64,000 nt of DNA, from positions 124,001 through 188,000 of the forward strand of contig NZ_PGGM01000006.1 of NCBI RefSeq assembly GCF_003010965.1, written 5' to 3'. How positions within the stretch are numbered: position 1 is the stretch's first letter; each line of letters opens with the position of its first letter. Positions 61,590-64,000 of the stretch are shown piece after piece. Both the position numbers and the translations under genes were made by a program. Under the pieces are notes generated by a model. The model did not search any database. It was given only the letters and a program-made list of their open reading frames with translations, and was not told the DNA's origin. Source of the DNA: Phyllobacterium sophorae (GTDB lineage Bacteria; Pseudomonadota; Alphaproteobacteria; Rhizobiales; Rhizobiaceae).

Positions 61590-62014
61590 ACGAAAGACCA
61601 ACGCACCTGCCATTCGACCCGACGATGGCCCAGATGGGCTTTGTCTGGTTCCTGCGGCTTGTTTCAATCTATTGTCTTGTCGCGGGTGTCGGTTATTGGG
61701 CGCAACTCAGTGGCTATTACGAGGGGATGCTGTGGCGCTTCGACCTCATGCCCTGGCAGTGGAAAGTCGCTTCAGTGTCGCTCGCAATGCTTTATCCCGT
61801 GGCTTCCACCGGGCTATGGATGATGGTTTCCTGGGGGCCGGTCATCTGGTTTGTTGCTGCACTGGGTGAAACGTTGATGTTCACGGTCTTCTCCAATTAT
61901 TTCTTCTACAGACCACAGATCGCCATCGTGCATGGCTGCGTGGCTTTTCTTTATATCTGCTTCCGCGCCGTAATTTTTCTGCAGAAACGCCAGCAGGCGA
62001 AGCCGGTGCGATAG
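61586..62014 (+). CDS. Four-helix membrane protein (DUF6163-like)
   Basis: 142 residues with four hydrophobic helices (GFVWFLRLVSIYCLVAGVGYW; VASVSLAMLYPVASTGLWMM; GPVIWFVAALGETLMFTVF; IVHGCVAFLYICFRAVIFL). Its ATG overlaps the stop of the hydrolase gene (ATGA), so the two are coupled. It resembles a small rhizobial membrane family that I recall as DUF6163; function unknown. The tandem repeat starts in its final stop codon region. Confidence 0.75.
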   Translation: MNERPTHLPFDPTMAQMGFVWFLRLVSIYCLVAGVGYWAQLSGYYEGMLWRFDLMPWQWKVASVSLAMLYPVASTGLWMMVSWGPVIWFVAALGETLMFTVFSNYFFYRPQIAIVHGCVAFLYICFRAVIFLQKRQQAKPVR

Positions 62015-62225
62015 AGCAAAGCCAGGAAAAGTGGGCACCGGTTTTCCGTCCGGTTTTGCGGCAGGCGATGAGCAAAGCCAAGAAAAGTGGGCACCGGTTT
62101 TCCGTCCGGTTTTGCGGCAGGCGATGAGCAAAGCCAGGAAAAGTGGGCATCGGTTTTCCGTCCGGTTTTGCGGCAGACGATGAGCAAAGCCAGCACCGGT
62201 TTTCCGTCTGGTTTTGCGAATGGCG
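62014..62225. repeat. Tandem 56-bp repeat, three full and one shortened copy
   Basis: Units begin at 62014, 62070, 62126 and 62182. Copies 1-3 are nearly identical (one or two substitutions); copy 4 lacks about 12 nt and diverges. Each unit contains GTGGGCACCGGTTTTCCG and then CGGTTTTGCGGCAGGCGA, resembling the dispersed intergenic palindrome-type elements of rhizobial genomes. As 56 is not a multiple of three, it is not a coding repeat. Confidence 0.9.
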
Positions 62226-62377: not shown

Positions 62378-62893
62378 ATGAACAACACACAAAGAAAGTC
62401 TGGCGCAAGCTCGCATTCAACACCACGTGACACAGCATTGCGGACACTTTATCTTGAGGCGCTTCAGTTGGTCGAACGGTTACATCGCCGTTTGCTTGAT
62501 GTGGTCAAGGATGAATTTGACCGCAATGGCCGCAGCGACATCAATGCAATTCAGGCATTGCTGCTTTTCAACATCGGCAATGCAGAATTGACCGCCGGTG
62601 AATTGCGCAGCCGCGGATACTATCTGGGTTCGAACGTTTCCTACAATCTGAAGAAACTCGTTGAACTTGGCTTCATATCCCATGAGCGTTCACGCACCGA
62701 TCGCCGCTCGGTTCGGGTCAGTCTGACCGAAAAAGGTTCTGAGGTCGCGGAACTGGTTGCGGGTCTGTACGAACGTCACATTGCTTCGATCGAACACGTC
62801 GGGGGCATCAAGGCGGAAGAATTCCAGTCCATGAACAAGGCTCTTCAGCGTCTCGATCGTTTCTGGAACGACTCCATCGCCTATCGCATGTAG
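62378..62893 (+). CDS. ldtR: MarR-family transcriptional regulator LdtR
   Basis: 171 residues from ATG 62378 (GAGGCAGG upstream). A winged helix-turn-helix is present at about residues 55-120 (LTAGELRSRGYYLGSNVSYNLKKLVELGFI, then SRTDRRSVRVSLTEKG wing) with dimerisation helices on both sides. The N-terminal TALRTLYLEALQLVERLHRRLLDVVKDEF is characteristic of the LdtR group, known from Liberibacter and widespread in Rhizobiales, where it controls an L,D-transpeptidase gene and envelope stress traits. The target promoter is not in this window. Confidence 0.85.
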   Translation: MNNTQRKSGASSHSTPRDTALRTLYLEALQLVERLHRRLLDVVKDEFDRNGRSDINAIQALLLFNIGNAELTAGELRSRGYYLGSNVSYNLKKLVELGFISHERSRTDRRSVRVSLTEKGSEVAELVAGLYERHIASIEHVGGIKAEEFQSMNKALQRLDRFWNDSIAYRM

Positions 62894-63007
62894 GGGATGG
62901 CGCCCTGTAATTGCATCACTGCGGAATTTAAAGTGCTACGGAAAGGCGTAACGATGTATGAGATTGCATACCGGTGCACCCGTTTTCGTGGCACTTCCGT
63001 CCCCGCC

Positions 63008-63727
63008 CTAGAATGGGATTTCGTCATCCAAATCCCGGTTAATCTTCGGGCCTTCAATTTGCTTGCGCGGCGCTTCGAGCTTTTTTTGCTCTTCGGGGGC
63101 AGGTAGCTGCTGCTGTTCCGGCTCTTTTTCCTTGGCAGAGCCCATTAGCTCGTTGATGCTGTTCACAAGCTCAGTAACGGGTTTTACGGCCTCGCCAAGC
63201 TTCTTTGCAAGGTTCGCTACGTCAATTCCCATTAGATACGCGTTGTCGAACCGTGTGCGGGCTTTATCTACATCAGCGGCGAACGCATTGAGCTTCTTGA
63301 ATAGCGAGTTCTTTTTCCGCTCTTCGATATCGATGTTCTCAAGAGCTTCGCGTATCTGCCCGACTAGGAAATGAATGCGCTTCTTGTCTGCCGGTGCCAG
63401 GGCAACCGAGTAGACTTTCCTCCGCCTTGATTTTCGGATTTTCAGGCTGGTCAGGTAGCGTTCTACCGAAAGCGCGAATTCGTCAAACTCATCGAATATG
63501 CGCCCTCGCGGGGGCACTGCCCATGCCGCAAAAGGTTCGATATTGAACGCTTCTGCAGCACCTATAACCCTGTTCATAAATGTTATGTGGGCCTGCGTGG
63601 TGTCTGTATTTTGATCGGCATGATTGAGATAATCGTCCAGGTCTCCCTGATAGCGATGCACCAACTCCGCGAAAGCTATTTCGTCGTCGTCATCAAGCTC
63701 ATTGAATTCATCCAGAATAGAAGCCAT
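63008..63727 (-). CDS. Hypothetical protein with SSB-like C-terminal tail
   Basis: 239 residues from ATG 63727 (GGTGAGGG upstream). Soluble and mostly helical, with an acidic N-terminus (LDEFNELDDDDEIAF), a long central region with no recognised family and a Gln/Glu/Pro/Lys-rich low-complexity linker before the end. The last residues are DLDDEIPF, nearly the same as the acidic tip of bacterial single-stranded DNA-binding protein (DDDIPF) that docks DNA-repair and replication partners. No OB-fold is visible, so it is not SSB itself. It could be a phage, plasmid or defence-related protein. Confidence 0.6.
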   Translation of the reverse strand: MASILDEFNELDDDDEIAFAELVHRYQGDLDDYLNHADQNTDTTQAHITFMNRVIGAAEAFNIEPFAAWAVPPRGRIFDEFDEFALSVERYLTSLKIRKSRRRKVYSVALAPADKKRIHFLVGQIREALENIDIEERKKNSLFKKLNAFAADVDKARTRFDNAYLMGIDVANLAKKLGEAVKPVTELVNSINELMGSAKEKEPEQQQLPAPEEQKKLEAPRKQIEGPKINRDLDDEIPF

Positions 63728-63883
63728 CGACACCCTCACCATTTACAAAAGAAATAGTGGGGTTTGGACGCTGCTACAATGGCAGGGCGGTCTAGCGTAG
63801 GAATTTTCCCATTCTATCCACATAATCGACAAGTCTAGGCTTGTATAAGTCGCAAGAAATGGCCAAGTACCAGCGATCGATTT

Positions 63884-64000
63884 TCAGAGCTTGGTAATAA
63901 CCGTACCATCAAACTGCATCGACACTGTTTGGGCGTGGCCGCTCATTGGCGGACTTTCCACTGAGATATGCAAGGAATTTGCAATTGACTGGTTGGAAGG
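63884..64000 (-). CDS. C-terminal end of a gene running off the window
   Basis: The last 38 codons of a minus-strand frame that stays open to the window end and stops at 63884-63886. The visible part reads HISVESPPMSGHAQTVSMQF followed by DGTVITKL. Too short to identify; composition is protein-like but coding status is tentative. Confidence 0.3.
   Translation of the reverse strand, partial: PSNQSIANSLHISVESPPMSGHAQTVSMQFDGTVITKL

Follow-up and report, generated by a model that had tools for sequence, protein, structure and literature searches.

A candidate mimic of the SSB C-terminal tip encoded by an accessory gene of Phyllobacterium sophorae

The C-terminal tip of the single-stranded DNA-binding protein (SSB) is a hub at which bacteria assemble the enzymes of replication and repair, and RecQ, PriA, RecO and Pol III chi are among the partners that dock on it. 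As set out in PMC10164576, most of the SSB partners studied dock on this C-terminal end, its last phenylalanine being buried in a hydrophobic pocket flanked by a basic lip and ridge, as described there for RecG; deletion of that phenylalanine abolishes docking. Phage recombinases of the RecT type are described as reading approximately seven residues at the C-terminus of SSB, seemingly in a host-specific way (PMC10711431). This contact can also be obstructed, as a phage-satellite protein, Stl2 of SaPI2, is described as binding and blocking the domain of the phage recombinase Sak that meets the SSB tail (PMC11846896).

Here we analyse a protein encoded within a 64,000-nucleotide stretch of the Phyllobacterium sophorae contig NZ_PGGM01000006.1; the whole of this stretch is referred to as the window. 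The protein resembles SSB (PF00436) in its last nine residues and in the flexible linker ahead of them, but differs in that it has no OB-fold, its body is predicted to be all-helical and its charged, proline-rich linker carries a motif of its own. DdrB of Deinococcus differs in that it binds and anneals single-stranded DNA. Stl2 is likened here by description only, in that a protein of a mobile element obstructs the part of a recombinase that meets the SSB tail; it is not portrayed there as a tail mimic (PMC11846896). We consider the window protein to be, with moderate confidence and on the basis of sequence comparison, a mobile, single-gene mimic of the SSB tip that would capture SSB partners through docking of its tail. 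The features of the locus, in window coordinates, are:

62893 to 64000, continuing to about 64214 of the contig: accessory insert between the ldtR-like gene and an L,D-transpeptidase-like gene, defined by comparison with congeners.
63008 to 63727, minus strand: gene for a 239-residue protein of an unnamed family, a candidate SSB-tip mimic (open reading frame list; homologues L003 and L010).
63742, minus strand: alternative ATG start giving 244 residues (five more); the inner ATG gives 239.
63110 to 63727, minus strand: helical body, residues 1-206, without an OB-fold (AlphaFold2 model).
63068 to 63106, minus strand: linker motif, residues 208-220 (LPAPEEQKKLEAP), conserved in the family alignment A4.
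63011 to 63037, minus strand: SSB-type tail, residues 231-239 (RDLDDEIPF), the same nine residues that end the host SSB.
63008 to 63010, minus strand: stop codon.

The protein ends in KQIEGPKINRDLDDEIPF, preceded by the charged, proline-rich linker, and the SSB of the same genome (G000, contig 22) ends in NFSRDLDDEIPF, so that the last nine residues of the two are identical. Only 4 of the 9 codons and 21 of the 27 bases encoding these residues are shared between the two genes. Because five of the nine tail codons differ, what has been kept appears to be the protein sequence rather than a fresh DNA copy; capture of the 3' end of ssb is therefore unlikely if recent, while an old copy is possible. 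The pattern [DE]-I-P-F-stop occurs at two sites in the 6.35-Mb assembly, which are ssb and the 63008-63727 gene, and the reversed control pattern matches once in the same assembly.

The window protein has no SSB match (PF00436) at E≤1, and none was found in any of 33 aligned family members at E≤0.05, where 20 Pfam families are listed. Searches of Pfam, PHROGs, NCBIfam and PADLOC for the window protein, and of Pfam, PHROGs and PADLOC for the 33 members, gave no convincing Pfam, NCBIfam, PADLOC or PHROG family for the window protein. The matches that did appear were judged to be noise from helical sequence: Avs2 (E 0.0055) and DUF6063 (E 0.036) for the window protein and, over the 33 members, TBCA_PH as the best Pfam family (E 2e-4, two members), PDC-M55C as the best PADLOC profile (E 4e-4, one member) and phrog_9783 as the best PHROG (E 0.0017, three members). 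The anti-phage profiles of PADLOC-DB 2.0.0 gave weak, scattered matches to 20 families, each in at most 3 of the 33 members. A weak match of two members to phrog_4477 (best E 0.0023), in which residues 171-239 of the window protein align to the very end of the profile, suggests that this phage family may share the tail. No DdrB-named family is among the Pfam matches of the 33 members, in a library that may lack a DdrB model. A literature search of titles and abstract openings, with subscription journals and preprints mostly outside its coverage, returned no description of such a family.

AlphaFold2 modelled the window protein from seven sequences with a mean pLDDT of 72.4 and a pTM of 0.47. 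Helices are predicted at residues 4-10, 15-36, 44-60, 74-103, 112-130, 136-153 and 160-201, and from residue ~203 onwards there is no predicted structure, the linker and tail being disordered in the model. A separate model of a prophage relative, L162, is also helical (mean pLDDT 73.5, pTM 0.49). These two almost wholly helical models, together with the database searches, bear out the description in the earlier note of a non-SSB protein with an SSB-type tail and no OB-fold. The same note had called the architecture exactly that of SSB, which holds for the tail and fails for the linker: in the host SSB this is rich in Gly and Ser and here it is rich in Lys, Glu and Pro. The linker has its own motif, L-P-x-P-...-K-x-[LI]-x-x-P at residues 208-220, which is alike in members with and without the tail; across the alignment L208 is found in 31 of 33 members, L or I at position 217 in all 33 and P220 in 29.

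Structure comparison of the body was not diagnostic. Residues 110-206 resemble many four-helix bundles, with VIA-align Z scores of up to 11.9 over residues ~110-206, although many of the rows are designed or unrelated bundles and helical bundles reach such scores through arrangement alone. Among the VIA-align rows are two bacteriocin immunity proteins, PedB and EntA-im, which we did not count as relatives. Foldseek of the model against the PDB and BFVD gave no match at E≤0.001, and six PDB sequences matched the profile weakly, led by two designed helical proteins (E 0.0013 and 0.0064).

The homologues are sparse accessory genes. L003 (51% identity) and L010 (45%) match the window protein over nearly its full length, and a single-protein scan of genome contigs returned L003 as the one relative. 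Within the same bacterial family 16 of 297 genomes match at E≤0.001, or 12 after removal of the window itself (G000), two matches that are not body homologues (G056 and G295) and a partial one (G181). With a profile, 12 of 397 genomes from the order and 6 of 398 from the phylum gave a match; each count includes the own genome, G329 is in both, and the matches in G466, G712 and G783 are partial or weak. There are five matching plasmid records, all from genera of Alphaproteobacteria, and a second family query of plasmids found two records, both already in the set. Phage records gave no match for the window protein or for one prophage relative. Scans of viral contigs found relatives with queries A3 and A5 and none with P0001, A2, A6 or A7, and prophage contigs yielded members L162-L165 and L169.

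Alignment A4 comprises 33 members with 17-51% identity to the window protein. It leaves out the sequences that repeat the window locus (L001, L002, L009 and L118), the partial sequences L022, L132 and L134, the other-body match L023, weak matches to other proteins (L024, L129 and L133), near copies or members from the same contigs (L165-L168 and L170) and L169, a tailed later find. Also omitted is L007 of plasmid pCMU01, which is nearly the same as L005/L006 but frameshifted, with its tail in another frame.

The tail is retained in 24 of these 33 homologues, down to ~21% identity, which answers the concern raised at the outset that it might not be conserved. These members end in [DE][IV]PF (11 EIPF, 10 DIPF and 3 DVPF), the P and F being invariant by definition of the class. 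An acidic residue is found at position -6 in 22 of the 24, at -5 in 23 and at -4 in all, with L at -7 in 16; at positions -9 to -25 even the commonest residue is shared by at most 8 of the 24. The other nine members lack the tail, among them L126, scored as tailless since its stop codon falls just ahead of the I-P-F codons, and some of them have acidic ends without I-P-F. Because these nine homologues exist, the body presumably acts in some way without the tail. In a tree from which the tail columns were excluded, tail presence requires four changes against a mean of eight after shuffling (0 of 500 shuffles as low), and the well-supported branches alone require one. The tail would thus be old, or gained a few times, and missing in places.

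The tail also follows the SSB of its host. The residue before I/V-P-F, either D or E, is the same as in the main SSB, taken as the best-scoring one, in 17 of 17 genomes: 16 in which both proteins were read (10 E, 6 D) and the genome of L003. In G1028 both proteins end in DDLDDDVPF and in G640 both end in FDDEIPF. Over the 16 genomes identity in the last six residues is 88/96 against a shuffled-host mean of 78.9 (p 1.5e-4), and in the last nine it is 117/144 against 97.6 (p 5e-5). A partial Mantel test controlling for divergence of the body gave r 0.50 (p 0.001) for the last six residues and r 0.45 (p 0.006) for the last nine, and independent pairs agree in direction in 4 of 4 cases, few contrasts with a sign-test p of 0.125. 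This comparison leaves aside the plasmid and viral members (L004-L006, L008, L162-L165 and L169), the third SSB-like gene of G386 and the second of G017.

The match is less uniform at the neighbouring position and among secondary SSBs. The family protein of G926 has I where the SSB has V, and that of G386 has I where one SSB has V and another I. The L003 genome contains a second SSB-like protein (L232) ending in FDDEIPF, with E against the D of the family protein, and two further ones (L233 and L234) without such a tip. The reading frame of the second SSB-like gene of G189 continues past IPF, and no tip was read for the second SSB-like match of G027 (L200).

For comparison we scanned for D-[DE]-[DE]-I-P-F-stop, which matches at least 186 of 199 genomes. 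Among the matches listed, 53 sites from 28 genomes, mainly those with two or more, were fetched as a sample rather than a census, and SSBs and SSB-like proteins make up the majority of the ones read. The remainder include a deoxyribosyltransferase-like protein of G010 (L155; PF05014, E 4e-6, just below the curated cut-off), a HerA-type ATPase of G106 (L156; PF01935), phage-type SF2 helicases of G016 and G178 (by eye), and proteins of G057, G174 (L158), G080 and G129 (L157) that match no Pfam family at E≤0.01. As a control, these eight non-SSB proteins match the host SSB at the D/E residue in 5 of 8 cases by eye (G057, G016, G178, G010 and G106, with mismatches in G174, G080 and G129). The host match of the family, in 17 of 17 genomes, goes beyond convergence on an acidic end, with some probability left to shared ancestry, since the match rests on few independent contrasts and joint inheritance could produce it.

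The window gene lies between an ldtR-like gene (named by eye) and an L,D-transpeptidase-like gene. Three congeners (G063, G149 and G266) have ~100-140 nt at this slot against ~1.3 kb here, and a fourth, G212 (L202), has different cargo. By eye this cargo resembles a C-terminal fragment of a polymorphic toxin with a candidate immunity protein. Of 29 other ldtR loci, 27 have an L,D-transpeptidase match in the 1500 nt that follow ldtR, the exceptions being L202 and L230. G295, from another genus, has a DUF4062 protein (L117, 7510-8625) at the same ldtR site and in the same orientation. We take the ldtR site to be an accessory slot because the congeners are empty or have other cargo there and G295 has the DUF4062 protein, in keeping with the earlier note, which had placed the gene in a seemingly accessory position beside ldtR. 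The end of the G295 protein resembles the window linker (54% over 39 residues, in a match that crosses one stop) and looks like a decayed linker and tail, either from a body swap that retained the 3' end or as a remnant. The linker and tail alone, used as a tblastn query, gave no match in plasmids or phages, so sharing of the linker by another body has L023 as its one case. Separately, a 56-bp unit is repeated in tandem at window positions 62008-62193 (3.3 copies, 96% matches), between an ORF for a 142-residue membrane-like protein and the ldtR-like gene.

Elsewhere few neighbour genes recur across loci. On prophage contigs the gene is found by eye downstream of a tape-measure-like ORF (L162), near large-terminase-like and HNH-like ORFs (L163) and downstream of tail-fibre-like ORFs (L164). 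On two Methylobacterium plasmids and one Methylorubrum plasmid (L005-L007) it is followed directly by genes annotated as a DNA methyltransferase and a PLD-family protein, a pair that is possibly a restriction-modification-like unit; the Methylorubrum copy is frameshifted. An annotated recombinase-family gene comes after the family gene on a Methylosinus plasmid, and G263 and G640 have an integrase-like gene nearby (by eye). The tailless members of G017, G034, G180 and G247 (L147-L150) are single genes between sufB- and sufC-like genes, their reading frame overlapping the start of sufC in G180 and G247, and that of G634 lies among pyruvate-dehydrogenase genes; by eye, then, five of the nine tailless members are in suf or pyruvate-dehydrogenase operons. 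Of the suggestion that the protein is a phage, anti-phage or repair factor, it is the phage or accessory setting that stands, given the prophage contigs, plasmids and chromosomal slot.

In the mechanism that we favour, the helical body bears a disordered linker of ~35 residues that finishes in a copy of the host SSB tip. As a copy of the host tip, the tail should therefore enter the same pockets as the SSB tip, and we infer docking in the hydrophobic, basic-rimmed tip pocket of SSB partners. The captured partner could be a host repair or replication protein or a phage recombinase, the choice being a guess, and capture would either draw the partner to the body or withhold it from SSB-coated DNA. 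The benefit, again a guess, could be interference with, or by, other mobile DNA. Confidence in tip mimicry is limited by the nine tailless members of 33, the thin phylogenetic control, the 5 of 8 matches in the control proteins and a body with no recognisable function.

A sharper form of tip mimicry is that the protein acts as a decoy against incoming phages, its tail soaking up annealing proteins of the RecT, Red-beta or Sak type and so giving resistance to superinfection. This would account for the match to the host SSB, as such recombinases are described as reading the tip host-specifically (PMC10711431), and for the gene being a passenger of prophages and plasmids, and the satellite protein reported to block the SSB-meeting domain of a recombinase sets a precedent (PMC11846896). 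Jamming of a phage recombinase fits well with the occurrence of the gene as a mobile orphan and with its match to the host. However, the anti-phage profile matches are weak and scattered (each family in three of the 33 members at most, with a best E of 4e-4) and by eye many copies are solitary and outside defence islands, and we regard this specific role as somewhat unlikely. An adaptor that brings a host helicase or nuclease to the carrier plasmid or prophage, for replication or DNA processing, is less probable still. The HerA-type ATPase and the phage-type SF2 helicases (the latter by eye) among other tip proteins are consistent with it, as is the position of the Methylobacterium and Methylorubrum plasmid homologues ahead of a methyltransferase and PLD-family gene, but few neighbours recur between loci and the window gene stands alone between core genes. 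It is very unlikely that the family consists of helical proteins of another function whose acidic tail is a charge or solubility feature resembling SSB by convergence, for although some tailless members have acidic ends without I-P-F and four persist between suf genes (by eye), charge does not account for a terminal [IV]PF, a host-matched D/E and nine residues identical to those of the own SSB.

We tentatively suggest, with rather less confidence than for tip mimicry itself, that Alphaproteobacteria harbour mobile, single-gene SSB-tip decoys whose tails evolve to match the SSB tip of the current host and which, where mobile elements compete, capture phage recombinases or repair proteins of the host, and that other bodies, here counting the DUF4062, deoxyribosyltransferase-like and HerA-type ATPase proteins outside the family, have also taken up this kind of tip. 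If this is true, a mobile family that copies the SSB tip host by host would let phages, plasmids and their rivals tap or jam the hub, and non-SSB proteins that end in an SSB tip matched to their host would share a marker by which similar accessory proteins could be found.
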